Shown in pieces: positions 21,857 through 39,140 of a stretch of DNA of 42,709 bases. Position 1 is the stretch's first letter, and the number at the start of each line of letters is the position of its first letter. The notes under the pieces are model-generated. The model made no database searches. It saw only the letters and a list, made by a program, of their open reading frames with translations, and had not been told where the DNA came from. The stretch covers positions 1-42,709 of the IMG/VR virus record IMGVR_UViG_3300035698_026635. One strand, 5' to 3'. A program made the position numbers and the translations under genes. Source of the DNA: a virus.

Positions 21857-22586
21857 GTCATGTCTAGATGAATATAAGTATGGTGCATGTAGTCGTCTAA
21901 GTCCCGAAGCACCCGTACCAGTTTTTGATTTACAAAGAATCAAAAGCAAGAATGGTATGGCTGCGAATGTACAGGACAATCTTAAGGCATTTGGTATTAA
22001 AACCGAACTCAACTCTAACTGGCCCCCTATGCTCAGAAAAACTAGGTTCGTGGATACGATCTCTGGACAGCAAATTCTGAGAGAGGACGAAGAGACTTTA
22101 ACTACAGTATTAAATACTCCCTCTTTAGATTATCATCCCAAAATGTACGATGCGGTTGTTGTATCAGATTACAATAAGGGGCTGATCACTTCGGAGTATA
22201 TAGGGAAGCTCTTAGAAATATTTGACGTTCCTGTTTTTGTAGATTCAAAACGTAGAGATTTGTCAGTGTTTGAAAACTGTTATATCAAAGTGAACAGCAA
22301 GGAGCACGATCTAATCCAGGCACTCCCGGAAAAGTGTGAACTTATCATAACTCGCGGTGCAGATGGGGTCGAATATAATGGTACCAAGTATCCTGCTCCA
22401 CATGAAGATGTTTTTGATGTGACTGGTGCTGGTGATGTATTCCTTGCAAGCTTCACATATAGCATGCTGACCACTGGTAGCATCAATGCCTCTATCAGGA
22501 ATTCTATTATTTTGGCGACTAAATCAGTTAGACATCGAGGTACATACGTCTTGACGAAGGAGGACATAGATGAAGTATGTGGTTGA
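21834..22586 (+). CDS. Heptose-7-phosphate kinase-like (HldE N-domain, PfkB family)
   Basis: Would phosphorylate heptose-7-phosphate at C1. The family start 'RVFLVGESCLDEYKYG' puts the likely initiation at TTG 21834 inside the adenylyltransferase gene; an in-frame TTG at 21798 is possible. 'GACSRLSPEAPVPVFDL' matches the HldE substrate-binding region, and 'DVFDVTGAGDVFLASFTY' is the PfkB GAGD motif with the catalytic Asp. About 250 residues. With the previous gene this forms a split, order-reversed HldE. Confidence 0.85.
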   Translation: MRVFLVGESCLDEYKYGACSRLSPEAPVPVFDLQRIKSKNGMAANVQDNLKAFGIKTELNSNWPPMLRKTRFVDTISGQQILREDEETLTTVLNTPSLDYHPKMYDAVVVSDYNKGLITSEYIGKLLEIFDVPVFVDSKRRDLSVFENCYIKVNSKEHDLIQALPEKCELIITRGADGVEYNGTKYPAPHEDVFDVTGAGDVFLASFTYSMLTTGSINASIRNSIILATKSVRHRGTYVLTKEDIDEVCG

Positions 22587-22890
22587 TATTGATGGCACAA
22601 TATGTGTGAATGCTACAGTGGGTGATTATTCTTCAGCTGAACCTTTCACCAGCAGAATCGAAAAGCTTAATGGTCTCAAGAAGGCTGGAAGCACTATTGT
22701 GTATTTCTCTGCAAGGGGTATGGATACATTCAATGGTGATATAGAAAGGTGTAAGGAGGAGTATTTAGAATTGACTCAGAGTCAACTGAATGCTTGGGGT
22801 GTCGATTACGATGATATAATATTAGGTAAGCCCAGTGGCGATTTCTATATCGACGATAAAGGGATGAGCTGTCATGAATTTTTCTATTAA
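22570..22890 (+). CDS. Small HAD-family phosphatase
   Basis: A 106-residue protein with the HAD motif 'VVDIDGTIC' (nucleophile D6, acid D8), motif II Ser in 'YFSARG', and 'GKPSGDFYIDDKGM' with the lysine and acidic pair of motifs III/IV. GGAGG stands before ATG 22570, which lies in the end of the kinase gene. In a heptose pathway the phosphatase GmhB, also HAD, removes a phosphate between kinase and adenylyltransferase steps, and this gene is in the right place to do that. It is much smaller than GmhB, so this is a guess. Confidence 0.72.
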   Translation: MKYVVDIDGTICVNATVGDYSSAEPFTSRIEKLNGLKKAGSTIVYFSARGMDTFNGDIERCKEEYLELTQSQLNAWGVDYDDIILGKPSGDFYIDDKGMSCHEFFY

Positions 22891-23014
22891 CAAAGAAGAT
22901 TCTTTGACGAGAGTAGAAAAAGGTTGGGGCTATGAGCTTTGGGTAGCTAACAAACCCGAGTACTGTGGTAAGCTTCTTCATTTTGAGGGAAGCAAAAAGA
23001 TAACAAAAGTATGA
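22874..23014 (+). pseudogene. Truncated 5' part of a cupin gene (46 aa remnant)
   Basis: ATG 22874 overlaps the end of the phosphatase gene, as a normal operon start would. Residues 14-42 ('VEKGWGYELW' ... 'YCGKLLHFEGSKK') are the start of a phage-type sugar cupin, but the frame then runs 'ITKV' into a stop that overlaps the ATG of the HNH gene. The metal-binding HxH part that should follow is missing here. A divergent copy of the same 29 residues appears at positions 230-258 of the next protein, attached to the rest of the cupin. This looks like the left remnant of an interrupted gene. A functional small peptide is unlikely. Confidence 0.75.
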
Positions 23015-24024
23015 CAGATAAACGAAAATCCATAAATTACACGAAGATTTGCAAGTACTGTGGCAAGGAATTTCTAGTTGCACCGAATAATAAGCAAGCC
23101 ATGCAGAGACTATATTGTGGGCGTAGTTGCCAATCAAAGGCTATCGTTAGAACAGATTCAAGAAAAAAAAGTTTATGTATGGTATGCAATGAAGAGTTTA
23201 AGCATTATGGAGAACGCATAGTATGCAGCGTCAAATGCAACCATCGATATATGTCATTGGCGAGATTAGGGGACAATAACCCATCATACAAAGGGAAAGA
23301 TAAATTCCTCGTTGAACGCTGCAAGTATTGTGACGATGAGTTTACTTATACAAAGTCAGGACGCTATAATAAAAGACTGCCTAAATTTTGTTCCAAAGAA
23401 TACTGGGACCGTTTTCAGAAAGGCAAAAACAAAACCCCAAATGGACCAGCCGTACATGGTGTGGGATATCTGCCAGCATTCAAAAAAATGAGAGAACAGA
23501 TAAAAAAACGTGACGGTGACAAATGTCTTTTCTGCGGAGAAACAGAAATACTTCATGTACATCATATCGATTACGATAAAGACAATAATGATCCCTTGAA
23601 TTTAATAACTCTTTGCATACGTTGTCATATGTTGACTAACTTCAATAGAACTTATTGGGAGATAGTGTTCTCTGCTCTTTTATCTGGTTCCAAGCTGGTA
23701 AAAAAGGGATGGGGTTTTGAGGTACATATTACAAACAATAATCAATATTGCATGAAATACTTGGTATTCTTTGAAGGTAAGAAATTTTCCTTTCACTACC
23801 ATCCAATAAAGAAAGAACTTTGGCACTGTTTAATGGGGAAGTTTGAATGTACACTCCAAACAGGTGAGAATAAAAAGGAATCATTCGTTTTTCAAAAGAA
23901 TGACAAAATTGAAATTGAACCAGGTGTGAAGCACCAGCTAAAGGCTTTGAAAAATTCTATTATTATTGAGGTATCTTCAGAAGATTATCCTGAAGATTCT
24001 ATTAGACTTGAAAAAGGTGATTGA
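23011..24024 (+). CDS. HNH endonuclease fused to a complete cupin domain
   Basis: A 337-residue chimera. Residues 14-127 contain three zinc-finger-like CxxC...C units (C14/C17/C36/C40, C56/C59/C72/C76, C104/C107/C127). Residues ~155-216 are an HNH nuclease with 'CLFCGETEILHVHHIDYDKD' and 'LCIRCH'. Residues 230-337 are a cupin with 'FHYHPIKKELWHCLMG' (HxH, E) and 'PGVKHQLKA', the full metal site of sugar isomerase or epimerase-type cupins. GTG 23665 after GGGAG (23657-23661) could start the cupin separately. The sequence is more AT-rich than its neighbours. See the finding on gene regeneration. Confidence 0.85.
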   Translation: MTDKRKSINYTKICKYCGKEFLVAPNNKQAMQRLYCGRSCQSKAIVRTDSRKKSLCMVCNEEFKHYGERIVCSVKCNHRYMSLARLGDNNPSYKGKDKFLVERCKYCDDEFTYTKSGRYNKRLPKFCSKEYWDRFQKGKNKTPNGPAVHGVGYLPAFKKMREQIKKRDGDKCLFCGETEILHVHHIDYDKDNNDPLNLITLCIRCHMLTNFNRTYWEIVFSALLSGSKLVKKGWGFEVHITNNNQYCMKYLVFFEGKKFSFHYHPIKKELWHCLMGKFECTLQTGENKKESFVFQKNDKIEIEPGVKHQLKALKNSIIIEVSSEDYPEDSIRLEKGD

Positions 24025-24884
24025 TGATGAAGATCTTAGTTTTGGGACATAAAGGTCAGATAGGTTCTGATTTCTGTAGGTTAGCAAAGGAAGAGGGACA
24101 TGAGATACGTGGCTTGGATATCGCAGGTGATGAAAGGTTCGATTTAAGACTGGAGCATAAATGGCCAGAATTAGCGGATCACATGAAGTGGGCTCACGTT
24201 GTTTTGTCTCTAGCTTTTGATGTTGGTGGGTCTCAGTATCTCAAAAAACATGAGCATACATATGAGTACCTAGAAGACAATAATGCAATTATGTTCAACG
24301 TGTTTCGTGCACTTAGGATTGCAAAAGTGCCATTCATCAATGGCTCTAGCCAAATGTCCAACATGATACACTCACCTTACGGTATGTTGAAGCGCATCAG
24401 TGAGTTCTATACCACATCACTCAATGGTATTAATGTGAGGTTTTGGAATGTATACGGACACGAGACAAACCCAGATAAGTTCCATGTCATTACAGATTTC
24501 ATCAATATGGCTCGCAATGAGGGTGTAATACATATGAAGAGTCATGGAAACGAAACTCGATATTTTATGCATGTGCTTGATTGTTCTCAAACTCTTTTGG
24601 CCATCTGTAAAAATTATGATAAGGCTAAAGAGTACATCCAAGATAATGAGTGGGATTTGAAAGCAATAGATATCTCTTGGCCATCCCCTACCGCTATTCA
24701 ATACATCGCTAAGGTGATTGGAGATATGTACGACGTACCAATTTATGCTCAATTGGGACTTAAAGGTGGCGACACACAGATGGGCATGCGCAATACTCCT
24801 ATGATGATGGGAACGATGCAGTTTCATAATCCAACTATAGATATTGAAGAAGGAATCAAAATGATAGATCAGGCAATGAAATGA
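24024..24884 (+). CDS. SDR-family nucleotide-sugar epimerase/reductase-like protein
   Basis: Consecutive ATGs at 24024 and 24027 follow AAGGTGA (24014-24020); 24024 overlaps the previous stop. The ~286-residue protein has a Rossmann 'KILVLGHKGQIGSDF', a 'LSLAFDVGG' segment where family members have the H-x-A motif, 'NGSSQM', and the catalytic 'SPYGMLKR' (YxxxK). 'VRFWNVYG' and 'RYFMHVLDC' fit sugar-nucleotide epimerases. Substrate unknown. It sits before a GDP-mannose 3,5-epimerase, so a GDP-sugar is likely. Confidence 0.7.
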   Translation: MMKILVLGHKGQIGSDFCRLAKEEGHEIRGLDIAGDERFDLRLEHKWPELADHMKWAHVVLSLAFDVGGSQYLKKHEHTYEYLEDNNAIMFNVFRALRIAKVPFINGSSQMSNMIHSPYGMLKRISEFYTTSLNGINVRFWNVYGHETNPDKFHVITDFINMARNEGVIHMKSHGNETRYFMHVLDCSQTLLAICKNYDKAKEYIQDNEWDLKAIDISWPSPTAIQYIAKVIGDMYDVPIYAQLGLKGGDTQMGMRNTPMMMGTMQFHNPTIDIEEGIKMIDQAMK

Positions 24885-25840
24885 AGGTCTTAGTGGCAGG
24901 AGCTGGTGGTTTCATCGGAGGCCATTTGGTCGAGAGGCTCCTTAGGGAAGGGCATGAGGTCCTGGCTGCTGATATCAAACCATTAAGTGAATGGTATCAG
25001 TACAGTAAGGAAACAAAACGAATTCCAATCATCGATCTTTCGACTGATGAAGGTGCAGATTTTATCACACAATATGTAGATGAAGTCTATATGCTGGCAG
25101 CAGATATGGGTGGCATGGGCTATATCGAATCCCATAAGGTAAATTGTATGTTGAGTGTCCTGATCAGTGCAAACATGATGAGATACTCAATGAGACACGG
25201 GGTCAAGAAGTATCTCTATAGCTCTTCTGCATGCGTCTACCCTGCATACAAACAGGAGAGTCAGGATGTATCTCTTAGAGAAGAGGACGCTTACCCTGCA
25301 GATCCTGAGCCTGGATACGGTTTGGAGAAACTATTCTCAGAGGAACTTGCCATCAATGTGGGCAGAGAACACCAGGGAATGAAAACCTACGTGCCCAGAT
25401 TTCACAATATTTTTGGTGAGCTTGGGACCTATGATGGTGGGAGAGAAAAGGCCCCCGCAGCTATCTGTCGCAAGATCATCCAAGCAAAACTTTCCGGAGA
25501 CCACAGCATAGAGATATGGGGCGACGGAGAACAGACCAGAAGCTTTATGCACGTTGACGATTGCGTTGAGGGCATGTTGAGGCTTATGGATTCTGATTAT
25601 CACATGCCAATCAATCTTGGTAGTGATAGACTAGTTACCATCAATGAACTTGTTACTTTAGTGGAAGAGATAGCTGGTATTAAGGTAGATAGAAAGTATG
25701 ATCTTTCGAAACCCCAGGGAGTGCGTGGTCGTTGCAGCAACAATGATCTGGTGAAGAAAGTCCTCGATTGGGAACCACAGATTTCACTTGAAGATGGACT
25801 AGAAAGGACTTATAAGTGGATCTATAAAAAAATGCAGTGA
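24881..25840 (+). CDS. GDP-mannose 3,5-epimerase-like enzyme
   Basis: Closely matches GDP-mannose 3,5-epimerases, which make GDP-L-galactose or GDP-L-gulose. Seen are the NAD site 'GAGGFIGGHL' (7-16), 'MLAADMGGMGYIES', 'SSSACVYP' with C118, 'YGLEKLFSEE' with Y146 and K150, 'GREKAPAAICRK' with K190, and 'IEIWGDGEQTRSFMHVDDC'. C118 and K190 correspond to the two acid/base residues known in the plant enzyme. 319 residues, full length. This is the most specifically assignable sugar enzyme of the island and shows that an unusual L-hexose may be in the glycan. Confidence 0.88.
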   Translation: MKVLVAGAGGFIGGHLVERLLREGHEVLAADIKPLSEWYQYSKETKRIPIIDLSTDEGADFITQYVDEVYMLAADMGGMGYIESHKVNCMLSVLISANMMRYSMRHGVKKYLYSSSACVYPAYKQESQDVSLREEDAYPADPEPGYGLEKLFSEELAINVGREHQGMKTYVPRFHNIFGELGTYDGGREKAPAAICRKIIQAKLSGDHSIEIWGDGEQTRSFMHVDDCVEGMLRLMDSDYHMPINLGSDRLVTINELVTLVEEIAGIKVDRKYDLSKPQGVRGRCSNNDLVKKVLDWEPQISLEDGLERTYKWIYKKMQ

Positions 25841-25870
25841 ACATGTAGCCTATAAGACGAAAGCCGCCCC

Positions 25871-26527
25871 ATGCAAAAAGACGAAGATTTTTGGAATGAA
25901 GCATACATTATCGCAGATTATATTTTCGAGACTAATCTCTCCTATAAAGAAATCGCTAAGAAGATGCAAAGGAATGAAGGTTATATCGTCGGGGTAGTAA
26001 AAGAGCTGGGTATCGATTGGGTCAGAAGGAAAAACAGAAAGCTTTCCCGAGGCGCATCAGCTCTCACCGAGATTATGAAGTCGCTCATGCCCGGTTCTAA
26101 GATCATGAATGAATATCATGTCGGAGAGAGGCTCATGCTTGATGTGTATTCTCCCGAATACAACATTGGTGCAGAGTATCATGGTAGACAGCATTTCTTT
26201 TATAGCACGTTATTCCATGAGACCAAGAAAGATTTTTATGCAGGCCAGAAAAGAGATGAGCGTAAGATAGAGCTGTGCGAAGAGCAGGGTATAACCCTCG
26301 TTGTATTTAGGTATAATGATACTCTTACCGAAGATATTGTTTACAGGCGTATTATAGATTCATTACGCAAAGAGTCTACTCCCGCAGATTTGACAATGCC
26401 CTCGTCTCGTAGGGTCAAGAAGACCCCATATTATGAAGAGATGAAACGTAGACAGAGAAGCTATAGACGCTCAGAATATAAGAGACTAAAGGAACTGAAG
26501 AAACGTGACTTCGATAAACCCGTTTGA
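25871..26527 (+). CDS. EDxHD/VSR-like endonuclease with N-terminal helix-turn-helix
   Basis: A 218-residue protein. Residues ~20-47 ('LSYKEIAKKMQRNEGYIVG') look like a helix-turn-helix. The centre has 'EYHVGERLMLDVYSPEYNIG', 'AEYHGRQHF' and 'KRDERKIELCEEQGITLVV', the spacing of E, D, H and D residues of the VSR-fold EDxHD homing endonucleases. The tail is strongly basic. Such genes are often mobile and free-standing. No intron, split gene or flanking duplication is seen here; it lies between the sugar genes and the helicase and overlaps the helicase start by 23 bases. Confidence 0.72.
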   Translation: MQKDEDFWNEAYIIADYIFETNLSYKEIAKKMQRNEGYIVGVVKELGIDWVRRKNRKLSRGASALTEIMKSLMPGSKIMNEYHVGERLMLDVYSPEYNIGAEYHGRQHFFYSTLFHETKKDFYAGQKRDERKIELCEEQGITLVVFRYNDTLTEDIVYRRIIDSLRKESTPADLTMPSSRRVKKTPYYEEMKRRQRSYRRSEYKRLKELKKRDFDKPV

Positions 26528-27953
26528 GGAAGAGAAAGGTACACCATTAGAGTATGGTCTGTTTGCCTTGTGCTTTCAGCAGCAAGGTGCTGTAGAATTT
26601 TTCAGTGCCAATCTTGACCCAAACATCGTTGGGGCTATTCATGGTGAAACAGGAATACATGAGTTTTATAAAACTATACTGGATTTCTATCACAACACAA
26701 GACTGGACCCAGTAGATCCAATCGCCTTTCGTTCATGGCTGGAAGATACTGATATCTTTTCTGCCTTGGGTGGAGAGGCAGGTGTCCGTGCCTTCATGGA
26801 TACCATTAACGCTGTAGATCTCCCCGACAAGAATCAAACCCTTCGGGTTCTAGAGGTCAGAGCTAATCATCGCAAGCAGCTGAACAATATTCAAGAGCTG
26901 CAGACTATCATCTCCAAAAAAGCGATCAAAAGTGATGGAGATATAGCACGTATATCACAATTGACTGAAGAGATTCGTGACCTAGAGAACCAGTTGGATC
27001 TCAATCCTCTTGACTTTGTCACCACTGGTACCCAGATGATTGACAATATCGACACGCTACTTGATATACCTAGTTTCATACCCACACAATTCAAGTCTCT
27101 CAATAGATCTATGGGATACAGTGATGACGGTGGATTCTATCGTGGCGCTGTTCATGCTATTCTTGCTGCATCGGGGTTGGGCAAGTCGACCTTTTGCAAG
27201 AGCCTTTGTAATCATTGGCTAGATGAGGGTTATCGCGTGCTATTTATTAATTTCGAGGAAGCACAGAACCACTGGGAAAGAATTCTCTTTACTCAAGTAA
27301 TTAAGGACAACGTATATAAAAATGCGGACTCCTGGGATGAGTTTACACGTAACAAATATACAACCTTATATAGGGCTAAGCTCACGGAGTGGGGTGATAG
27401 GCTCATGGTCCGTCATGATCCAGACACTCCATATTTTGACGATCTAGAACTATGGTTTAGGGATGTCATAGGACATAATGAGGCTTTGCCAGATGTTGTC
27501 GTTATTGATACGATTCAATCTCTCTTCACAAAGGGTTCCGGTAAACCTAGATGGGCGGAGTATGAACAGATGATGGTACGGCTAGAAAAATTAGCCAAAG
27601 ATATGGACACAGTGATGATCATCACCGCACAAGAGAATACTAACCGCATGAAAGAAAAGAGGGAGGTTGTGATGCAATCAGATACTGGCGGATCCATAGC
27701 AATCCAGCAAAAATCTTCAGTCACTATGTTCTTGACACCGATAGCTAGCGAGGGAGATGAGAGCGCTGATCCTTCCCTCATGCAACTCCAAATGCCAAAA
27801 AACAGAATCACTGGTGGGGCATTTAACTTGAATCCCCCTATGATTAAGTATGATGATAATTCTAAATCATATCTTCCATGGGAGCTTCCTGATTCCTACG
27901 GACAGGATAGACAACACAACATAAATCTCTCCGAGGGAATAGAACAACTATGA
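26505..27953 (+). CDS. dnaB: DnaB-like replicative helicase
   Basis: Unwinds the replication fork as a hexamer. GTG 26505 starts a 482-residue protein. The N-terminal ~110 residues resemble the DnaB N-domain ('GLFALCFQQQGAVEFF'), a helical linker follows, and the RecA-like motor has Walker A 'AASGLGKST' (221-229), 'INFEEAQNHWER', and Walker B 'VVVIDTIQSL' (331-340). 'IITAQENTNR' with following Gly-Gly-Ser matches the family's sensor region. It opens the replication block together with primase and polymerase downstream. Confidence 0.88.
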   Translation: MTSINPFEEEKGTPLEYGLFALCFQQQGAVEFFSANLDPNIVGAIHGETGIHEFYKTILDFYHNTRLDPVDPIAFRSWLEDTDIFSALGGEAGVRAFMDTINAVDLPDKNQTLRVLEVRANHRKQLNNIQELQTIISKKAIKSDGDIARISQLTEEIRDLENQLDLNPLDFVTTGTQMIDNIDTLLDIPSFIPTQFKSLNRSMGYSDDGGFYRGAVHAILAASGLGKSTFCKSLCNHWLDEGYRVLFINFEEAQNHWERILFTQVIKDNVYKNADSWDEFTRNKYTTLYRAKLTEWGDRLMVRHDPDTPYFDDLELWFRDVIGHNEALPDVVVIDTIQSLFTKGSGKPRWAEYEQMMVRLEKLAKDMDTVMIITAQENTNRMKEKREVVMQSDTGGSIAIQQKSSVTMFLTPIASEGDESADPSLMQLQMPKNRITGGAFNLNPPMIKYDDNSKSYLPWELPDSYGQDRQHNINLSEGIEQL

Positions 27954-28753
27954 TAACACTGAACGCAGAGAAAATTCGAGATTTCCAGACATGTGAATTA
28001 GCCTATAAGTATAGGTATATTGATGAGGTCATGGAACCAATCTATCATCGAGAACTATTATTGGATAGATTTGAAATTGAGATCAAAAAGATTATGTCAT
28101 TCTTTTTCTATAAGAAACAGGGTGGCAGCATGCCATCATATAATGCCCTATTGAGTAGATGGCAAAGAAACTGGTTTAAGAATGAAGAAACAGCGAAAGA
28201 CATAGCGGGGTCGACTACTACACCACACATGGTCAGTGAAAGCAGTCTGACATCTAGAGCTGCCAGTGTTTTACTGAACTTCTATAATGATTTTGCAGAC
28301 CAAAATAGTCAACCCATTCTTATAGACGAAACAGTTGCAGTATCTGTTGGTAAAAATCTTAGATTGAGTGGCACTTATGACATAGCGTTGAGGGATCCCA
28401 AGGGTGATCAACTTTTGATTATCAAATGGATCACAAGAGGTAAGGGAGCATGGGGTGGCACTATTGATTATGGTATAGATTTTGCTGTAATAGACCACCT
28501 CTTCCAAGAAAAGAGTTCTCTTGCTGCTACCCACAAACCAACATATGCACTCTATGAGATTGGGGCTAAGAACAATAAACTGAAAGTCTTTAATCTCTCT
28601 GAACAAAGTAAAAACACTGTAGCTTTTTGGGTAAACAGAATAGGTGATACGGAAATATTTGCTCCACGTAGAGGGTTGACAGTAGCATGCAAAGCCTGTC
28701 CCTTTGATGCCCCGTGCGCTAACTTTAACGAATATACAATTGAAGATGTCTGA
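27950..28753 (+). CDS. RecB/Cas4-type nuclease-like protein with degenerate active site
   Basis: A 267-residue protein with the family's N-terminal 'KIRDFQTCELAYKYRYID' and a C-terminal cysteine cluster 'ACKACPFDAPCANF' that may bind Fe-S or zinc. The PD-(D/E)XK core shows 'GTYDIAL' but then 'LLIIKWITRGK' where active members have a D-x-K (as in 'VIDYKSGK' of the gene at 36041). The catalytic Asp and Lys seem replaced by Lys and Ile. It may be a non-cutting DNA-binding partner. It sits between helicase and primase, ATGA-coupled to the helicase. Confidence 0.68.
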   Translation: MITLNAEKIRDFQTCELAYKYRYIDEVMEPIYHRELLLDRFEIEIKKIMSFFFYKKQGGSMPSYNALLSRWQRNWFKNEETAKDIAGSTTTPHMVSESSLTSRAASVLLNFYNDFADQNSQPILIDETVAVSVGKNLRLSGTYDIALRDPKGDQLLIIKWITRGKGAWGGTIDYGIDFAVIDHLFQEKSSLAATHKPTYALYEIGAKNNKLKVFNLSEQSKNTVAFWVNRIGDTEIFAPRRGLTVACKACPFDAPCANFNEYTIEDV

Positions 28754-29432
28754 AGATATCCTCAATGATCTTTTGTCTGATTATCCAGACAGAAAATCCC
28801 TTGATGCTGAATCAAATATAATTTTACGACCTTTGATTTCCGAGATAGAAATGATCAAAGACGCTAAAATGCAGGAGTTTGTAAAGATTATCCTGTTGAA
28901 GTCACTGTTTTTTTGGGTCATGCCCGTCTGCCCAGAAGACAATGAAGATTTAATAGGCATATGGCCACCAGACACATATCGTCCCGGCGGTGAAGTTCTC
29001 AATACCCAAAGAGTTATACGCGTATGTGAGGTTTTGGCAGATAGTCATGGTTTGGATGATGATAATAGGGACATACTATATGCTGCAGCTTTGTTGCACT
29101 CTGTTACTAAATATGTCTATGATCACACTTTAGGTGGCCCACGCTATGATCCAATGCATCCCTACACAGTGGATACTTTAGTTGCGATCATCAGAGAAGA
29201 AGAACAGATCAAGGCTCTTGAGGGCACTCCTCATACTTTAAGTATAACAGACGAACAGGTCATGCAAATCTTGAGAATTATACGATGCCAAAGAGGACCC
29301 TGGTCTTTGATCCCAGAGACTGTGCCCGTAGCACTGTGTGAAACGATTCTACATATGGGTTATCATATAGCAATGAATTTGGATTATATAATCGATGGAG
29401 ATGAAATAATGGATGCAAGATGGGACTTCTAG
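28746..29432 (+). CDS. HD-domain-like protein, HD pair altered
   Basis: ATG 28746 overlaps the end of the previous gene. The 228-residue helical protein has 'ILYAAALLHSVTKYVYD' in the place of the HD-phosphohydrolase 'LLHD' and 'MHPYTVDTLV' in the place of a later His motif, and 'GYHIAMNLDYI' near the end. The central Asp is Ser, so metal-dependent hydrolysis is doubtful. Phage HD proteins often act on nucleotides; its place between helicase and primase suggests a replication-linked role. Assignment is tentative. Confidence 0.55.
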   Translation: MSEDILNDLLSDYPDRKSLDAESNIILRPLISEIEMIKDAKMQEFVKIILLKSLFFWVMPVCPEDNEDLIGIWPPDTYRPGGEVLNTQRVIRVCEVLADSHGLDDDNRDILYAAALLHSVTKYVYDHTLGGPRYDPMHPYTVDTLVAIIREEEQIKALEGTPHTLSITDEQVMQILRIIRCQRGPWSLIPETVPVALCETILHMGYHIAMNLDYIIDGDEIMDARWDF

Positions 29433-29581
29433 AACGTAAATGGTTGATCGATGAGTTTGAAAACATTCTAAGAGAAATGGAATACTGCAGAGATCACACC
29501 GAGATCTTTAATCTACCTCGCTATCCATTGTGGAAGCTAGGAGAACCACAGGGAAGAGCGCGCATTGAGACTGCCGGATGA
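29420..29581 (+). CDS. Small protein of unknown function (53 aa)
   Basis: ATG 29420 lies in the end of the previous gene and the stop lies inside the primase start, the usual overlap style here. The 53-residue product is charged and helical ('KWLIDEFENILREMEYCRD') with a Pro/Arg-rich tail. No motif recognised. It could be a helicase or primase partner by position. Confidence 0.5.
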   Translation: MGLLERKWLIDEFENILREMEYCRDHTEIFNLPRYPLWKLGEPQGRARIETAG

Positions 29582-30776
29582 CAAATCAAAATATAGCAAT
29601 AGGTGGAAGTGGGTTGAGTTAGGCAGGTATCTACCCAAAGACTCCAAGGTCGCTCGCTCTTCAAAGAAAGTGGGAAAGACTTGGGTTCCAATCACATATG
29701 AAAGCTCTGAGATAGAGACCTATGCCGACAAGTATGATCGCATGGGTATATATTCTACCGTCTTTCACTATGATGATCCAGACTGGGAGAAAGCCACCAG
29801 ATTGGGTTCTGTTTATTTCGATCTAGATAATGCAGATGTCGACATAGCACATACAGATGCATTGACATTGGTTGAATTCTTAAGTGACATGCTTGATGAG
29901 AGTCAACTAAGAATATACTTCACAGGTAAGAAAGGCTATCACATCGAATGTGAAGCTCTGGCTGTGGGTGTTTCTCCAAGCAATGAACTCCCTGGTATAT
30001 ACCGTATTCTTGCCAACGATGTCAAAGAACAACTCAATTTGACAAGTATAGATTTTGCAGTCTATGACCTAAGACGTATGTGGCGTGTGCCTAACACCCG
30101 ACATCAAGCAACCGGCCTGTACAAAATACCTGTTACCATTGATGAACTCAAAAAGGGCAATGACTATGTCAAGCAGTTAGCTGAGAATCCAATACCACTG
30201 GATGTCCCTGAACAGGAGTTCTCCTTCAAAGCCAACAAATGGTATAAAGAATATGTTTACAAGTATGAACAATCATTAACTGAACAGCATTCTTTGGATG
30301 ATGTCATTAGCATGTTCAGGAAACGAGGCACTGGTGGCAATCGCAGTGGTGATATCGAACGAGTTTTCAGTCCAGTCAACCTTTTTGATAACTGCCCCTC
30401 AATTCTAGGGCTCTGGGAGAAGGCAGAGAAAGAGCATCACTTGGAACACGAAGAGAGATTGTTTCTTTGCAGCATCTTGACTTACACAGATGAGGCTGTG
30501 GAATATCTCCACATGATTCTGTCGAACTGTCATGACTATAGCTTAGAAAAATCTCAATCACACATAGATGATTGGATTTCAAGGCGCAAGTATGGCATCG
30601 GGGGAAGACCCTACACTTGTAGAAGAGCAAACGAAGCCGGGGTTGGGTGTTCTAATTGCGAACTAGAGCCAAAGAAAAAGTGGATCAAGGTGGGAGAGAA
30701 CTTTGTAGAGGGAGAAGAGTTTAGTGAACCCTCTCCGATTAGATATGCTTATCAATCCGTTACTATTAATACGTAA
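29565..30776 (+). CDS. Archaeo-eukaryotic-type (AEP superfamily) DNA primase
   Basis: Synthesises primers for the DnaE polymerase. The start is TTG 29565 within the 53-residue gene; no other good start precedes the conserved region. Core motifs: 'SVYFDLDNAD' (D86, D88), 'YFTGKKGYHIE' (H126), and 'VYDLRRMWRVPNTRH' with 'TGLYKIPV', the pattern of PriS/LigD-like polymerases. The C-terminal third has Cys residues ('YTCRRANEAGVGCSNCE') typical of a PriCT-like zinc or Fe-S part. 403 residues. This differs from the DnaG primase of the bacterial host. Confidence 0.8.
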   Translation: MRLPDDKSKYSNRWKWVELGRYLPKDSKVARSSKKVGKTWVPITYESSEIETYADKYDRMGIYSTVFHYDDPDWEKATRLGSVYFDLDNADVDIAHTDALTLVEFLSDMLDESQLRIYFTGKKGYHIECEALAVGVSPSNELPGIYRILANDVKEQLNLTSIDFAVYDLRRMWRVPNTRHQATGLYKIPVTIDELKKGNDYVKQLAENPIPLDVPEQEFSFKANKWYKEYVYKYEQSLTEQHSLDDVISMFRKRGTGGNRSGDIERVFSPVNLFDNCPSILGLWEKAEKEHHLEHEERLFLCSILTYTDEAVEYLHMILSNCHDYSLEKSQSHIDDWISRRKYGIGGRPYTCRRANEAGVGCSNCELEPKKKWIKVGENFVEGEEFSEPSPIRYAYQSVTINT

Positions 30777-30795
30777 CCTAAAGCGGGAGAGATAG

Positions 30796-30900
30796 ATGTC
30801 TAAACCCAGTAAGAGTTTAGCACCTGTTGCAAAGGTAGCTAAATCACGTAAACTGTCTAAAGGGAATAAACCGAAACCGAAAAGAGTTGAAAATGGCTGA
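30796..30900 (+). CDS. Very small, highly basic peptide (34 aa)
   Basis: ATG 30796 follows GGGAGAG with good spacing and the stop overlaps the next gene. The 34-residue product is dominated by Lys, Ser and Pro ('KSRKLSKGNKPKPKR') with no hydrophobic core, so it is probably disordered and may bind nucleic acid. The strong ribosome-binding site supports translation. Function unknown. Confidence 0.5.
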   Translation: MSKPSKSLAPVAKVAKSRKLSKGNKPKPKRVENG

Positions 30901-31099
30901 AGAACTAGATCCCAATATCAAGGGAATGTGTACAGAATGTAAGAGCATCATGCTTGATTCTTGGATGGTCAAGAACAGTTTTGCACAGCAAGGGTTGAGC
31001 CCGGTATGCCCTTACTGTGGTGGGGTTGTAGCAATAGTCGACACTCGTCGTGATATAGAGGCAATCAAGAAACGTATGGATAGCGAACGAGGGTTGTAA
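30893..31099 (+). CDS. Small zinc-ribbon protein
   Basis: ATG 30893 is chosen over the in-frame TTG at 30887; AAAGAG lies upstream. The 68-residue protein has 'CTECKS' and, 27 residues on, 'CPYCGG', a four-cysteine zinc ribbon, followed by a basic helix ('IEAIKKRMDSERG'). It may bind DNA or the replication proteins nearby. A strong terminator follows. Confidence 0.65.
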   Translation: MAEELDPNIKGMCTECKSIMLDSWMVKNSFAQQGLSPVCPYCGGVVAIVDTRRDIEAIKKRMDSERGL

Positions 31100-31136
31100 A
31101 CTATCTCATAGCTCTGGTAAACTTATCTATACAGAC

Positions 31137-31170
31137 AGACCCCGGGCCTAGGGATGGTCTGGGGTCTTTT
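31137..31170 (+). terminator. Intrinsic terminator just upstream of dnaE
   Basis: AGACCCC (31137-31143) pairs with GGGGTCT (31161-31167) and the inner GGGCC/GGTCT continues the stem with wobbles, loop TAGGGAT, then TTTT. The dnaE ribosome-binding site (GGAG 31176-31179) and ATG (31184) follow within 20 bases. No clear promoter is seen between, so dnaE expression may depend on read-through (attenuation) or on a promoter in 31094-31131. Confidence 0.82.
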
Positions 31171-31183
31171 CTATTGGAGATTG

Positions 31184-33193
31184 ATGAAACACTACGTAAA
31201 TCTGCATACCCATACTACGTTTAGTATGCTTGATGGGCACGGAAAAGTAGAAGAGTATGCCAAGAGAGCTAAAGCACTCCAAATGGGAGCACTTGCTCAG
31301 ACGGACCACGGCAATATCCATGGTTGGCTAGACTTTTACGATGCCTGTAAAGAGCACGATATCAAACCTCTATTCGGTATCGAGGCATATCAAGCCAGAA
31401 AAACAAGGTTTGACAGAGACCCCGAAGAGAGGGCTGGTCCTGCTACCAATGAGTGGGAGCAAAGAGGTCCGTATCATCTGACAATACTAGCCAAGGATAA
31501 GACTGGATACGACAATATCATCAAGCTTTCTTCTCGCTCTTATCTAGAAGGCTATTATGGTAAGGGGAGAATAGACCACGATCTCATCTCCGAGCATTCA
31601 GATGGACTCATCATATTGTCAGGATGCCTAAATGGCGAAGTCAATCAAGCGCTACTGAGAGGAGACTTTCAGGCTGCTTTAGACAAAGCATCGACAATGC
31701 AGGACATGGTTGGCAGGGAAAATTACTTCATAGAAGTGCATGATCATGGAATTGCAGAGCAACTTAAAGTCAAAGATGATCTTATTCGCATTGCGAAACT
31801 GATTGATGCACCCTTAGTGCCCACTGGTGACTGCCACTATGTGCACAAGGAAGATCACGCAAAGCATGATATTATGTTGTGTGTGGGGACGGGTAGCACC
31901 GTTGACAATGAGAATAGATTTAAGTTCGCTGGCCCAGAATTCTATCTCAAGACATATGATGAGATGCTAACTCGTTTCGAACCGGAATGGCTTGAGAACA
32001 GCGTCAGAATAGCTGACATGGCTAACGTTGATCTGGAGTTTGGAGAGTATTATTTTCCAAAGTCTCAAGACGTACCTGATGATGAGGATGTTGACGAATA
32101 TCTAGAGAAGCTCATGTGGAGTGGCCTCAAGGGCCTCTATGGTGACCCTCTGCCACAAGATGTTATTGACAGGGCAACTTATGAGTTCCAAGTCATTCAG
32201 AGAGAAGGCTTTCAACATTATTTCCTAGTGGTCGCAGACATCATCAGGTGGGCTATCGATAATGGAATCCGTGTCGGACCAGGCAGAGGCAGCGCTGCAG
32301 GATGTATGCTATCATATGCATTGGGTATTACGAAATTAGATCCGATCAAATACGATCTTCTTTTTGAGAGATTCCTCATTGAGGGACGCAGCACTGTTCC
32401 TGACATCGATATTGACTTCGACGATAGATATAGAGATAAGGTCATTGAATACTGTAGAGAGAAGTATGGTGATGATCATGTTGCTCACATCGTAACCTTT
32501 ACCAGCATCAAAGCAGCGTCAGCTATCAGAGACGCCACTCGTGCACTTGGTCACGAATATCAGGCTGGTGATAAATTGGCCAAGATGATTCCATCTGCTA
32601 TTCTGGGTGTCACAAAATCGCTGAAAGAGTGTTTAGAGGTCAAAGAAATTCGAAAGGCCTACGATGAGGATTCTGTCTCGAAAGAGATCCTAGACGCTGC
32701 TATGGGCTTAGAGGGCCTTTATCGGCAGCGTGGCATTCATGCAGCTGGTATCGTGATATCCAGAAACCCAATGATTGAATACATACCTGTCATTCGATCT
32801 GGTGATGACAAACCCATTGTGACTCAGTGGGATATGGAGAGAGTTGAGCAGTGTGGCCTCCTGAAGATTGACTTCTTGGGACTCCGTAATCTTGGTGTCA
32901 TAGATCTTTGCCTGAATAGAATCAAGAATCGACATGGTATAGAAGTAGCAATAGATGATATTTCTTTGGAAGATGAGAAAGTATATGATCTTCTCAGAAG
33001 CGGCAACTCTATCGGTTGTTTTCAGATAGAGGGCGATGGCATGCGCCAGATGATGATGGAACTCCAGCCGGAGAACATATATGATCTGATGGCTTTGATA
33101 TCACTTTACCGTCCTGGCCCTATGGGTTCTGGCATGGATAAAAATGTATATAGATCGCAAACATGGACGACAACAGATATCTTATCCACATGA
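31184..33193 (+). CDS. dnaE: DNA polymerase III alpha (DnaE-like), N-terminal part: PHP and palm
   Basis: The replicative polymerase of the phage. ATG 31184 after GGAG is preferred to ATG 31154, which lies in the terminator. The PHP domain (1-~280) has candidate metal ligands H8, H10, D17, H42, E67, H98, C148, D216, H218. The palm has 'GPGRGSAAGCMLSYALG' and 'VPDIDIDFDD' with D407 and D409, and the third aspartate D563 in 'LLKIDFLGLRNL'. The frame is right up to 'RPGPMGSGMDK' and then runs into unrelated codons to a stop at 33193. The remainder of the polymerase continues in the +1 frame from 33144. Confidence 0.9.
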   Translation: MKHYVNLHTHTTFSMLDGHGKVEEYAKRAKALQMGALAQTDHGNIHGWLDFYDACKEHDIKPLFGIEAYQARKTRFDRDPEERAGPATNEWEQRGPYHLTILAKDKTGYDNIIKLSSRSYLEGYYGKGRIDHDLISEHSDGLIILSGCLNGEVNQALLRGDFQAALDKASTMQDMVGRENYFIEVHDHGIAEQLKVKDDLIRIAKLIDAPLVPTGDCHYVHKEDHAKHDIMLCVGTGSTVDNENRFKFAGPEFYLKTYDEMLTRFEPEWLENSVRIADMANVDLEFGEYYFPKSQDVPDDEDVDEYLEKLMWSGLKGLYGDPLPQDVIDRATYEFQVIQREGFQHYFLVVADIIRWAIDNGIRVGPGRGSAAGCMLSYALGITKLDPIKYDLLFERFLIEGRSTVPDIDIDFDDRYRDKVIEYCREKYGDDHVAHIVTFTSIKAASAIRDATRALGHEYQAGDKLAKMIPSAILGVTKSLKECLEVKEIRKAYDEDSVSKEILDAAMGLEGLYRQRGIHAAGIVISRNPMIEYIPVIRSGDDKPIVTQWDMERVEQCGLLKIDFLGLRNLGVIDLCLNRIKNRHGIEVAIDDISLEDEKVYDLLRSGNSIGCFQIEGDGMRQMMMELQPENIYDLMALISLYRPGPMGSGMDKNVYRSQTWTTTDILST

Positions 33194-34526
33194 ATCTCTG
33201 AGGGGTGCACTAGAGAAATCAAAAGGTATTATGCTCTACCAGGAAGACGTGCTCAATGTTGCAAAAATAGGTGCTGGTCTTTCTCCCGCAGATGCAGATG
33301 ATTTACGTAAAGTTATCGGTAAGAAATATATGGATAAGGTAGCGAAGTATCGTGAGCTATTTGTTCAGGGGGCAATGAAAACCAATAACATGTCTGAGCG
33401 AGTCGCAAACGATATCTATTCAGATATTGAATACTTTGCTGGTTATGGTTTCAATAAAGCTCACGCTGCATCTTATGCAATTGTTTCATACCAAACTGCT
33501 TATCTGAAGGCCCATTATCCAGTCGAGTATATGGCTGCACTTATGTCTACAGTCGTGGACAAGAAAGATAAGTTGAATCTCTATCTCGGTGAGTGTAAAG
33601 CAATGGGCATCACTGTGTTGTCTCCTTCCATCGTAGACTCTGAATATCACTTTACTGTTAAAGATGACAGTACGATTAGGTTTGGTTTATCAGGTATCGA
33701 TGGTCTTGGCAAGGCACAAATAGGCCACTTGGCTGAGAACCAAAAATATCACGACAATATCTGGTCATTCATGCGCCATTCGAATCCACATGCCCTGAAG
33801 AAGAATACGATGCTACAGCTTGTGAATTCGGGTGCCCTTGATGATCTTGTCCGTTCCGAAGATTTGAGAGAAAATACTCTTAAAAGAGAAGCAACAGTGG
33901 AGATTCTCAATAGAGAGAACTCTGCTATTGGTATCTATTTGTCGGGGCATCCCTTGGATGGTCTTTGGGAAATTCTCGAGAAAGATATATCCCATACTTG
34001 TCATGACGTAGCCGATCTACCAGACGGTGTTGGTGTACAGGTTGCTGGTATCGTATTAGAGTATGAGGAAATGACTACCAAAAGATCTGGTCAGAAAATG
34101 TGCAAATTTTCGATAGAGGATCTCAGTGGTAAAGCAGCAGCCATCGTATTTCCAAACGAGTTCTATAGTGTCACGAAAGGCATGGACGCTTCATTAAAAC
34201 CGATATGCAATATAAAAGGTAATATCAAAAGGGAATCAGAAAACTCTGATATTATTATAGTGGTTAGAGATATATCCCCCATAGATGACAGTCTCTTAAT
34301 GGGTGGCAGACCTATCATATTGCCGGTGAATAATTCAATAGACAGCAATCAGATAGATAAGATAGCTAATATTATTGATAGAAATCGTGGCGACTGTCCT
34401 GTCTACTTACAAATAGCAGACGCAGAATTTGATGTCACTTTCAAATTTGATAAGTGCGTAAGAGAAGATGCAGTGAGTATTATTAAAGATATAATTACCC
34501 TAACAGAAGTCAAACATTTAGTGTGA
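33144..34526 (+). CDS. dnaE: DNA polymerase III alpha (DnaE-like), C-terminal part: fingers, HhH, OB
   Basis: Continues the polymerase in the +1 frame. It opens 'MYIDRKHGRQQISYPHESLR', the direct continuation of the fingers region after 'SGMDK', then has 'GIMLYQEDVLNVA', 'GYGFNKAHAASYAIVSYQTA', a helix-hairpin-helix-like segment ('GLSGIDGLGKAQIGHL') and an OB fold ('VQVAGIVLEYEEM'). One base too many in an AAAAA run (33140-33144) would explain the shift. Joined, the protein is about 1113 residues, near the normal length. Separate translation from ATG 33144 would cut through the polymerase fold. Confidence 0.88.
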   Translation: MYIDRKHGRQQISYPHESLRGALEKSKGIMLYQEDVLNVAKIGAGLSPADADDLRKVIGKKYMDKVAKYRELFVQGAMKTNNMSERVANDIYSDIEYFAGYGFNKAHAASYAIVSYQTAYLKAHYPVEYMAALMSTVVDKKDKLNLYLGECKAMGITVLSPSIVDSEYHFTVKDDSTIRFGLSGIDGLGKAQIGHLAENQKYHDNIWSFMRHSNPHALKKNTMLQLVNSGALDDLVRSEDLRENTLKREATVEILNRENSAIGIYLSGHPLDGLWEILEKDISHTCHDVADLPDGVGVQVAGIVLEYEEMTTKRSGQKMCKFSIEDLSGKAAAIVFPNEFYSVTKGMDASLKPICNIKGNIKRESENSDIIIVVRDISPIDDSLLMGGRPIILPVNNSIDSNQIDKIANIIDRNRGDCPVYLQIADAEFDVTFKFDKCVREDAVSIIKDIITLTEVKHLV

Positions 34527-34533
34527 GGTTTGT

Positions 34534-34920
34534 ATGAAAGAAAGAACAGTTATGGTCACCACACGTCACTCGTATCGTGACCCAGCAAGAAGGGCATGCT
34601 TTGATGCATGTGTATCTTGCATGCGATGTTCCAACAAAGGAATGAAGCTTGAATGCGATTCATGTTCTGGGCGTCCCGATCCCTATGGGCAAAGGATACC
34701 AGATACGGATGATTTTTGTGATTGCAGGAATGGTGTCATGAGATGGTTGACTAAAGACGGTCGTTTAGTTATCCGTAAGTTCATGTCCAATCCTTTCAAG
34801 GGTCAAGTTAAGACAGACGCTAAGACCCAGGACGAACGAGACTGGAACTCTTACCTTGGGGAGCGCAGAGAGCAATTGAACGACCCCGAATGGAACCCAA
34901 TCATCACAACGGAGGAATGA
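34534..34920 (+). CDS. Cys-rich protein of unknown function
   Basis: A 128-residue protein starting at ATG 34534 after GAGG. Eight cysteines in the first half ('CFDACVSCMRC', 'CDSC', 'FCDC') suggest one or two zinc sites. The second half is charged and Trp-containing. It follows dnaE after 7 bases and is probably co-transcribed. Family not recognised. Confidence 0.6.
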   Translation: MKERTVMVTTRHSYRDPARRACFDACVSCMRCSNKGMKLECDSCSGRPDPYGQRIPDTDDFCDCRNGVMRWLTKDGRLVIRKFMSNPFKGQVKTDAKTQDERDWNSYLGERREQLNDPEWNPIITTEE

Positions 34921-35201
34921 TGCCATACCATGAAAAAGAGGTGTACGAGAATAAAATTACATCTTTAGAAATAATGAGGGGACCGACATCTAATAGGATC
35001 TGGCTGCAAGCAGGTATAGCTGGACTTCAGATGTCCGATGAAGAGTTTGCGGACCTCTGGCCACTTCTCAAAGGTTACGCAGAAGAGATAGGGATAGAAA
35101 AGCCCGGCATACCATCCACCCAGAGAAAACAATGCACATGTTTGTGCCATAGCTTTGAAAGTTATAGCCACGTAGTTGCATGTTGTGAAGGAGTATTATG
35201 A
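34920..35201 (+). CDS. Small protein with C-terminal Cys/His cluster
   Basis: Two adjacent ATGs (34917, 34920) follow GGAGG 34911-34915; 34920 has the better spacing. The ~93-residue protein has 'QAGIAGLQMSDEEFADLWPL' and a terminal 'CTCLCHSFESYSHVVACCEG' that may bind zinc. Its stop overlaps the ATG of the 13-residue remnant (35198). Function unknown. Confidence 0.6.
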   Translation: MPYHEKEVYENKITSLEIMRGPTSNRIWLQAGIAGLQMSDEEFADLWPLLKGYAEEIGIEKPGIPSTQRKQCTCLCHSFESYSHVVACCEGVL

Positions 35202-35239
35202 ATCCAGAAGAAGATTTTATGGAGATCGGTGAGACTTGA
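35198..35239 (+). pseudogene. Truncated 5' end of a small gene (13 aa remnant)
   Basis: ATG 35198 overlaps the preceding stop (ATGA) after AGGAG, an ideal operon start, yet only 13 codons follow, ending 'FMEIGET' and a stop. The same residues occur at the start of the gene at 35892 ('WMEIGET'), where the protein continues. At DNA level ATGGAGATCGGTGAGAC here is repeated downstream with one change. This is the left remnant of a gene interrupted by the endonuclease VII-like gene. Confidence 0.7.
35219..35235 (+). repeat. Left direct repeat flanking the endonuclease VII-like insertion
   Basis: ATGGAGATCGGTGAGAC, 16 of 17 bases identical to ATGGAGATTGGTGAGAC at 35913-35929. The two copies flank the nuclease gene and encode the same residues (MEIGET) in the left remnant and in the restored gene. 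Confidence 0.8.
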
Positions 35240-35292
35240 TAGAAATGGGACTATATTGATCGTCTGCTTGTTACTATGCTACCTAATCGAGC

Positions 35293-35883
35293 ATGAGTGA
35301 GGCAGGAATGAATCAAGTCAAGACTAAGAGATGCAATGGGTGTCTAATAGAAAAATCGCTAGAAGATTTTCATAAGAAACTAGATGGACGTCAATCTAAC
35401 TGTAAAACATGTATGATTGAAATCAATAAGAGATATCATACACTAAGCGAAAAAACATCTCTATCTAGACAAGGCATAAAACGTTGTACCTACTGCAAAA
35501 AAGTCAAAAGTATTAAAGATTTTTATAAAAACGGTGTATCACCATTAACTGGTAACCAAAGAATGAATCCACGTTGTAAAACATGCACGAAAGAACTTAC
35601 TGGCGACAAAACTAAAGATCGAAACTTGCGCAAAAGATTCAATATGACCCTAGATAGATACAACCAGTTAATTGATGAGCAAAATGGAAGATGTGCAATA
35701 TGCGCTCAAAGAAAACAACTAGTAGTTGATCATGATCACTTCTGTTGTCCCAATAGAGAATCATGTGGAAAATGCGTTAGAGGTTTATTGTGCCATAATT
35801 GTAATCGTAGTCTTGGACTTTTTGGGGATTCCATTTCAAATCTCAAGACTGCAATCCAATATTTAGAAAGAGGTAAATTGTGA
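35293..35883 (+). CDS. Endonuclease VII-like (HNH/His-Me finger) nuclease with zinc-finger N-terminus
   Basis: A 196-residue protein (ATG 35293; ATG 35308 possible). Two N-terminal zinc-finger-like units (C14/C17...C37/C40 and C65/C68...C95/C98) precede a recombination endonuclease VII domain with 'CAICAQRKQLVVDHDH', 'CGKCVRGLLCHNCNRSLG' and the closing 'LKTAIQYLERG', all typical of the family. The gene is AT-rich compared with neighbours. It lies between a 13-residue remnant and a restored copy of the same gene start, which suggests a mobile, homing-type nuclease rather than the resolvase of the packaging system. Confidence 0.88.
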   Translation: MSEAGMNQVKTKRCNGCLIEKSLEDFHKKLDGRQSNCKTCMIEINKRYHTLSEKTSLSRQGIKRCTYCKKVKSIKDFYKNGVSPLTGNQRMNPRCKTCTKELTGDKTKDRNLRKRFNMTLDRYNQLIDEQNGRCAICAQRKQLVVDHDHFCCPNRESCGKCVRGLLCHNCNRSLGLFGDSISNLKTAIQYLERGKL

Positions 35884-35891
35884 GTGAAGAA

Positions 35892-36047
35892 ATGAATCAT
35901 TTAGGTGAATGGATGGAGATTGGTGAGACCGGTTGGGTCCCAATGTCCGACGGTACCTATGTCAATCTGAAGACCAATGAAATGATGACCGCAGATGGAG
36001 ACATTATCTCTCTAGAAGAAGAAGACATAGAGGAAGGCGGATGCTAA
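35892..36047 (+). CDS. Small acidic protein, restored gene after nuclease insertion (51 aa)
   Basis: Starts at ATG 35892 or at GTG 35880, which overlaps the nuclease stop (GTGA). It contains 'WMEIGETGWVPMSDGTYVNL', then an acidic tail ('LEEEDIEEGG'). The first part repeats the truncated ORF at 35198. No known function. The stop overlaps the start of the RecB-family nuclease by 7 bases. Confidence 0.6.
   Translation: MNHLGEWMEIGETGWVPMSDGTYVNLKTNEMMTADGDIISLEEEDIEEGGC
35913..35929 (+). repeat. Right direct repeat flanking the endonuclease VII-like insertion
   Basis: ATGGAGATTGGTGAGAC, the partner of 35219-35235 with one difference, 694 bases apart. It lies in the coding start of the restored 51-residue gene. 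Confidence 0.8.
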
Positions 36048-37127: not shown

Positions 37128-37156
37128 TTGGTTTTTTTTGAAGACTCATGTATAAT
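37128..37156 (+). promoter_or_regulatory. Putative promoter of the nuclease-sigma factor unit
   Basis: TTGGTT (37128-37133), a 17-base spacer and a perfect TATAAT (37151-37156) lie upstream of the nuclease and sigma factor genes. The spacer contains a T-rich run that would bend DNA. A minus-strand gene starts nearby, so this is a divergent control region. Confidence 0.55.
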
Positions 37157-37189
37157 GTGATCATACCAATAGAATACGGATGCAATCAA

Positions 37190-37780
37190 ATGGCACAGAA
37201 GTCACGAAGATGGACACTAGAAGACGATGCGAACCTTGTCCGAATGGGCGTCAACGGGTCTAATGTCGCTAGTGTTGCAAGAAAACTAAAGCGTACTGAA
37301 TCAGCCGTGATGAGTAGGGGCACCAAGCTCAGGCGTGGTCTCAACAACCTTCTGGATCATAAGGAGAACAAAACTCCCGTCTCCAAGCAGGGTTTTCGCA
37401 AGCATCTGAATGTCAGCGTGAGAAGTACATGGGAAGCCAATTTCCTGTACTCTCTTAATGCCGAGAAAATCAAGTGGGAATACGAACCAAAGACATTCAT
37501 TTTCCATGAGATAGAAAGAGGTACCAGAGCTTATCTTCCGGATGTCTATCTTCCGGATCAAGACATGTGGGTGGAAATTAAGGGGAGGCTACGTCCTAAG
37601 GACAGGACTAAGTTAAGGAGATTCAAGAAGTATTATCCTGATGAATTCTCTCGTTTTCAGTGTGTGGTGAAAAACCCTAGGGTTGAAGCTGCCATTTTCT
37701 TCGAAGAACTTGGGGTACCCGTATACACATATTATGAGGATTTGGAAAAACAATATGGTCACTTACCGAAGTGGGAATAG
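37190..37780 (+). CDS. SANT/Myb-like HTH plus PD-(D/E)XK endonuclease
   Basis: ATG 37190 starts a 196-residue protein; the longer frame from 37148 would begin inside the promoter. Residues ~6-47 ('RRWTLEDDANLVRMGVNG', then 'VARKLKRTESAVMSRG') are a Myb/SANT-like DNA-binding domain. The second half has 'RSTWEANFLYSLN', 'YLPDVYLP' and 'MWVEIKGR', giving E, D and E-x-K of a PD-(D/E)XK core seen in many phage nucleases. It may be a resolvase or a homing-type enzyme. It is overlapped closely by the sigma factor gene. Confidence 0.75.
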   Translation: MAQKSRRWTLEDDANLVRMGVNGSNVASVARKLKRTESAVMSRGTKLRRGLNNLLDHKENKTPVSKQGFRKHLNVSVRSTWEANFLYSLNAEKIKWEYEPKTFIFHEIERGTRAYLPDVYLPDQDMWVEIKGRLRPKDRTKLRRFKKYYPDEFSRFQCVVKNPRVEAAIFFEELGVPVYTYYEDLEKQYGHLPKWE

Positions 37781-38657: not shown

Positions 38658-39140
38658 ATGGACAACGTTCTCCTGTTGAATGCCTCATATGAACCCATCC
38701 GAATCATCTCCTACAGGAGAGCTATTGTGATGCTATTACAGAATAAGGTGGAGTCTGTGATTGACTCCCACCATGTAATCAGATCACCTAGCATAGAGAT
38801 AGTGCTGCCGTCTGTTGCCAAGTTGAAATACTATGTGCAACTTCCCTATACCGGGTTGGCAAATACCCCAACAAAAAAGGGGATCCTGAGAAGAGATGAT
38901 CACAGGTGTGGCTATTGTAATAAAAAAGCCACAACCATAGATCACATCATCCCAAGATCCAGAGGAGGCAAGCACACCTGGGTAAACCTGACCTCGTGTT
39001 GTTTGTGTTGCAACCAGGAGAAAGCTGATAAGTTTCTCCACGAAATAGGCTGGAAACTACTCAGGGAACCAAACGTCCCCTCCAATAGACCAGATGTATC
39101 TGGTAGATCAGACAGGGAAGAGTGGGTCCCATTCCTATAG
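38658..39140 (+). CDS. HNH endonuclease (LNASYEP family)
   Basis: A 160-residue protein with the N-terminal 'VLLLNASYEPIRIISYRRA' and the HNH core 'CGYCNKKATTIDHIIPRSRG' ... 'NLTSCCLCCNQEKAD'. This family is common in actinobacteria, cyanobacteria and their phages and includes free-standing nucleases. ATG 38658 lies 27 bases after the sigma factor. Unlike the two other HNH-type genes here it has no flanking duplicated gene start. It ends two bases from a converging gene. Confidence 0.85.
   Translation: MDNVLLLNASYEPIRIISYRRAIVMLLQNKVESVIDSHHVIRSPSIEIVLPSVAKLKYYVQLPYTGLANTPTKKGILRRDDHRCGYCNKKATTIDHIIPRSRGGKHTWVNLTSCCLCCNQEKADKFLHEIGWKLLREPNVPSNRPDVSGRSDREEWVPFL

Follow-up and report, generated by a model that had tools for sequence, protein, structure and literature searches.

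Two genes of a linear viral contig from IMG/VR (IMGVR_UViG_3300035698_026635; 42.7 kb, hereafter called the window), one encoding a cupin (site A) and one a small acidic protein (site B), have probably each been invaded in their 5′ part by a free-standing homing-type nuclease that is accompanied by a diverged replacement of the target. This reading is carried by the anatomy of the two loci, by uninterrupted alleles in related contigs, by the foreign origin of the cupin at site A, by the recurrence of the arrangement elsewhere, by its enrichment at nuclease genes and by the divergence between the duplicated gene ends. The features of sites A and B all lie on the plus strand, and loci and contigs retrieved in the searches are given as L numbers.

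At site B a gene at 34890-35201 ends in a stop codon which overlaps (ATGA) the start of stub B (35198-35239), in which the small acidic gene keeps its native opening of 13 codons before a stop (MNPEEDFMEIGET). Then follow a free-standing nuclease gene of the Endo VII (DHHRN) type (35293-35883; PF02945, E=5e-21) and the small acidic gene with its replacement start (35880-36047, beginning MSEEMNHLGEWMEIGETGW), whose GTG overlaps the nuclease stop. The nuclease motif CAIC...VDHDH...RGLLCHNCN corresponds to the CX2-4C, DHDH, R and CX2C/N elements of the DHHRN family. Stub and acidic gene have the sequence ATGGAGATyGGTGAGACy (MEIGET) in common, found as ATGGAGATCGGTGAGACT at 35219-35236 and as ATGGAGATTGGTGAGACC at 35913-35930. 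The similarity score of 37 over 13 residues between the two lies in the range of chance (34 or more in 15 of 2082 permuted pairings); stub B is secured because uninterrupted alleles in L120 and L121 begin at the same operon position.

L120 and L121 were retrieved with a fragment of the window DNA polymerase III. They are syntenic with the window for the helicase, the primase, a PDDEXK gene and the 128-amino-acid gene (34534-34920), mostly at 54-68% amino acid identity, and also have the same gene order upstream of site B. In both contigs the stop codon of the same upstream gene marks the start of the acidic gene (beginning MDSDWMELGDTGWIPVGDGTFVN), and no nuclease is present. The L120 contig also carries an intact cupin gene (L295) directly after the HAD-like phosphatase gene, without nuclease A, and the L121 contig likewise has an intact cupin at this position. 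In these uninterrupted relatives the target genes are present in single copy. Because uninterrupted syntenic alleles exist at both sites, we regard stubs A and B as native gene starts and both nucleases as optional insertions. Searches with the PDDEXK neighbour and, in phages, with the acidic protein found no relatives, and L093 was rejected as a relative of the acidic gene, since the match (WVPMSDGTY) was due to chance.

At site A the start of stub A (22874-23014), which encodes 46 amino acids, about 42 of them native to the resident cupin gene, overlaps the end of a HAD-like phosphatase gene (22570-22890), the same gene that precedes the intact cupin in L295. The stub's stop codon and the ATG of an HNH nuclease gene, at 23011, share bases (ATGA). 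The nuclease domain (23011-23688) contains tandem CxxC units and an HNH core, which matches PF01844 with 19.3 bits in the whole-protein scan, just below the cut-off, and above the cut-off in the genome search. From 23011 the reading frame stays open through a complete cupin (23689-24024), so that nuclease and cupin are fused in frame up to 24024. Stub A and the fused cupin score 79 over 31 residues in an ungapped BLOSUM62 comparison. The earlier note, based on the window sequence, had assigned one architecture to both sites, and the order of stub, nuclease and second copy is indeed found at both. Its descriptions of an early stop touching the nuclease (A) or lying near it (B, where the stop at 35239 precedes the start at 35293), and of the nucleases as carrying CxxC zinc units and an HNH or related core, agree with these data as well. 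However, it had taken the second copy at site A to be joined to the rest of the target, whereas nuclease and copy share a single frame and the cupin as a whole is foreign.

This foreign origin can be followed in two further records, L002 and L095, which contain the same HNH::cupin fusion as their only cupin match; the window protein is 51% identical to that of L002 over its length, junction included. Before the cut point the fused cupin shares 23/32 and 22/32 residues with L002 and L095, and after it 45/79 with each, in comparison to only 22-28/79 with native-type cupins. Stub A shares 20/30 residues with the native cupins of L295 and L003 but only 14/32 with the fused copy, and the GC content of the fused cupin is 32.6% versus 42.4% in the neighbouring epimerase genes. 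Because the identities to L002 and L095 are high on both sides of the cut point and the GC content differs, we interpret site A as the replacement of the resident gene by a whole foreign nuclease-fused cupin. The native remainder appears to be gone, as none was located downstream. In L095 the HAD-phosphatase gene continues in frame into a GIY-YIG/NUMOD-like segment (L095:3144-4022), perhaps a second nuclease-target fusion of the same operon.

Related copies on both sides of a nuclease would also result from a tandem duplication of the target with later insertion of the nuclease between the copies. We consider this highly improbable. In nine stub/copy pairs the nucleotide identity is 51-77% with a longest identical run of 9 nucleotides, and the differences at codon positions 1, 2 and 3 number 46, 31 and 80 (p=4e-6 against equal shares). 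Differences so heavily concentrated in third positions indicate that stub and copy diverged as coding sequences before they met, a pattern which argues against a recent tandem duplication. In addition, stub and copy at site A come from different cupin lineages and the uninterrupted relatives have single copies. The recoded copies fit the prediction that the element would destroy its own target site.

In order to see how general the arrangement is, 175 distinct nucleases with both flanks were collected. They came from viral contigs and genome contigs and had been selected because they resemble the nucleases of the window or that of L062; a scan of genome contigs gave five loci, L212 among them. 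An unanchored similarity comparison of the flanking genes showed no excess, as 2.3% of nucleases and 2.3% of other genes reached a score of 50. Its top matches were gene starts present in both flanks, or gene ends that run up to a stop in each copy, and for this reason start- and stop-anchored tests were designed (thresholds of at least 46 for the 5′ type or 38 for the 3′ type). Six of the 175 nucleases pass (5′ type: L014, L165, L212; 3′ type: L062, L108, L021), but none of 2082 permuted upstream/downstream pairings. Among 916 control genes five passed, three of which were removed: L158 lies on the same contig as L062, L035 is itself an HNH nuclease and L106 lies beside an HNH gene. The two passes left among 913 controls are an exact tandem repeat (L018) and a low-complexity sequence (L030), giving p=3e-4 (Fisher) for 6/175 versus 2/913, or p=7e-5 if L035 is counted as a nuclease (7/176). 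The earlier note had proposed such a scan, in which a clear excess would support a general mechanism. A nuclease-specific excess does appear in the anchored scan, though not in the unanchored one, and the idea of a class withstands this check; with about 3-4% of the sampled nucleases the qualifying cases are a minority.

The same figures bear on the view that any accessory gene may be inserted by illegitimate recombination, the nuclease playing no part in its own insertion. Such an event would give the same anatomy, and mosaic exchange is common in phages. Yet the other genes of the same contigs pass the anchored test only in the two cases just named, and we judge this explanation to be very unlikely.

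In total, no fewer than seven further sequences, viral or prophage-like, show similar arrangements, the gene identities being taken from Pfam. To the 5′ type belong L014, with stub MSEDVIKISWSSLQR, a PDDEXK gene with MNDDTIKISWTSLQR and an uninterrupted relative in phage Magritte which begins VTLRLSWSQLRVHEECKQK; L165, a TerL gene with MADLNFSLLPWQQ identical in stub and copy; and L212, where 28 residues match in the UDG domain of a UDG/polymerase gene. The 3′ type is represented by L062 (LGGRFHHKP and LGGKFHHKP, each directly before the stop), L108 (VVVSRRTQ and IIVSRRTQ, likewise before the stop) and L035 (1001-1552), an unlabelled HNH nuclease (PF01844, 9e-10) that surfaced blind as the best unexplained control, and whose C-terminus consists of the tail left over from the gene before it (PIQIAVQKRKVK and PIQIAIQKRKSK, both followed by a stop). 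In L036, which scores 34 and thus stays below the threshold, the native tail of a lysozyme (TPNRAKELSDLMAKIT, stop) follows the nuclease. L021 passes by score but is weaker, as the second copy there falls within a putative gene but in a different frame, and L171 is weak (score 33). The free-standing Endo VII gene of Escherichia phage vB_EcoP-R1 (L303:2860-3291) overlaps the start of the DNA polymerase gene by 8 nucleotides and has no stub, possibly a donor-like arrangement.

Further nuclease-like open reading frames of the window, at 25871, 37148 and 38658, have no detectable stub. The last (38658-39140) is a third HNH nuclease with PF01844 above the cut-off, for which no duplicated gene end was found. 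The other two resemble small endonucleases: 25871-26527 is EDxHD/Vsr-like by eye and has no Pfam match, and 37148-37780 looks PDDEXK-like, also by eye.

Other phages have Endo VII nucleases within group I introns, as in the rV5-type TerL gene, and one could ask whether stub and downstream gene are exons, or extein parts, joined by splicing. This we find hardly credible, as the residues of the stub occur again in the downstream copy, which has a start of its own, and splicing would duplicate them. Nor did any case locus, sites A and B included, have an Rfam intron match, a search of limited sensitivity that also missed the annotated intron of an rV5-type TerL. Least plausible of all is an assembly chimera of two strains. 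The window is a metagenomic contig without reads, and frame breaks in its DNA polymerase III gene and in L295/L296 show that contig errors occur. However, the same anatomy is seen in many independent contigs and samples, and the HNH::cupin fusion is kept in three. Tandem duplication and chimeric assembly had been named in the earlier note as explanations that would overturn its proposal; the diverged recoded copies and the single-copy relatives speak against the first, and the recurrence in independent contigs against the second.

The frame change in the DNA polymerase III alpha gene lies at an A-run (33130-33200), where the reading frame 31154-33193 resumes in that of 33144-34526, and reflects either a sequencing error or a real split gene. 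In the relative of the L120 contig the epimerase gene (L295:1818-3302) apparently bears an intein (beginning CFDDQTEIWTKDGWK, ending CGN/C), which is lacking in the window homologue at 24881.

Returning to insertion by homing-type nucleases, we infer the cutting, the homing, the resistance of the copy and the function of the products as follows. The nuclease would break an allele that has no insertion, at a point close to one end of the reading frame. A genome already carrying the element would then serve as repair template, and the recipient would acquire the nuclease along with a foreign, recoded replacement for the end that was cut off, either at the 5′ end (site B, L014, L165, L212) or, as the mirror image, at the 3′ end (L062, L108, L035, L036), so that the invaded gene could still be expressed. 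At site A the repair would have brought in a whole foreign gene fused to the nuclease. The native stub keeps the operon position and ends in a stop at or near the nuclease, and the replacement gene is in most cases coupled to the stop of the nuclease. As the DNA of stub and copy is not the same, the copy should resist cutting and recombine poorly with the stub, which would spare the nuclease from deletion.

Several observations weigh against this proposal. Cleavage and mobility are predicted from sequence, and the uninterrupted alleles, only about 54-68% identical in neighbouring genes, are too diverged for base-level mapping of the junctions. The anchored criteria were shaped by L014, L062, L108 and L021; L165, L212 and L035 came later. 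No stub was seen at 14 nucleases from named phages (T7-like, rV5-like, actinophages), and no further case emerged from the class-b HNH nucleases (L215-L294). Negative intron searches in phages are weak evidence, as an rV5-type phage has a joined TerL annotation (L206:683-3113) that implies an intron, which Rfam at the gathering threshold does not detect. Finally, in L002 and L095 the HNH::cupin gene begins directly after a kinase gene without any stub, and nuclease A lacks an N-terminal zinc module of about 48 amino acids found in these relatives, as if the junction had removed it. Stub A may therefore be the scar of a one-time joining.

The latter points fit an explanation in which no regeneration strategy exists: the nuclease would normally lie beside, or be fused to, a complete copy of the target, one side of the break would be repaired by homology and the other joined illegitimately, and the stub would be a relic. 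Free-standing nucleases that run into the beginning of the following gene and have no stub are numerous, with phage R1 as an example. We consider this explanation unlikely, since the nucleases of site B, L014, L165 and L212 look complete and lie repeatedly between stub and copy, and since in L062, L108 and L035 the native tail is fused exactly to the end of the nuclease, a precision hardly expected of chance joins. Case A leans towards a one-time scar, whereas the precise 3′-type fusions lean towards repeated transmission of the whole unit.

Aeh1 offers a known case of a homing nuclease gene, mobE, that lies within a coding gene, nrdA, with no intron around it. There, unlike here, nrdA stays in two functional pieces and no gene end is duplicated. 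Optional HNH or Endo VII genes near conserved phage genes are also known from T4 Seg/Mob (PMC2988022) and F-CphI (PMC6083498), the latter experimentally establishing the Endo VII motif as a homing-nuclease family; these genes are described as intergenic, and neither a target stub nor a replacement end was mentioned in the texts searched. Reviews and surveys of phage homing nucleases give intergenic, intronic and intein locations (PMC2988022, PMC10448857).

The earlier note knew of no standard name for the arrangement; two precedents exist. The mORFs of fungal mitochondria (Allomyces atp6; Glomus atp6, atp9, cox2 and nad3; PMC3630166) likewise combine an endonuclease gene with a foreign, diverged duplicate of the end cut off from a coding gene, the native end being left over and amino acids being conserved while the DNA has diverged. 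This trait, a diverged duplicate plus a leftover native end, is shared by site B, L014, L165, L212, L062, L108, L035 and L036. Site A differs, with its whole gene replaced and no native remainder. The fungal elements are mitochondrial, encode LAGLIDADG or GIY-YIG enzymes and replace only the C-terminus, whereas the phage cases have HNH or Endo VII nucleases and affect both the 5′ and the 3′ end. The second precedent are integrative elements that restore their target gene, namely IMEVchUSA3 in dusA and SXT in prfC (PMC8409611). They too keep the invaded gene in frame by a diverged new 5′ coding end; for dusA the N-terminus supplied shows 61% identity across 35 residues. Those elements are large, carry a site-specific integrase and a new promoter and excise reversibly; here the nuclease is the only gene between stub and copy, with neither recombinase nor att site, and double-strand-break repair is the presumed route. 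For phages the arrangement is not described in the open-access full texts searched, subscription journals lying outside this scope, and within these texts the phage version is new.

Beyond the two sites, we tentatively suggest, as a view for which the case is nearly balanced, that a widespread class of phage elements transmits a nuclease plus a recoded target end and enters either end of a gene without intron or intein, the divergence of the ends being selected for resistance to cutting and against recombinational loss. Free-standing homing nucleases are described as keeping out of coding sequence unless an intron or intein comes with them. A nuclease with a replacement gene end would be a third route into coding DNA, one already seen in fungal mitochondria. 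It would account for odd short open reading frames and split genes in phage annotation, and it would supply new N- and C-termini to essential genes, those for terminase and lysozyme among them. The allele pairs found here offer concrete material for cleavage and homing tests.

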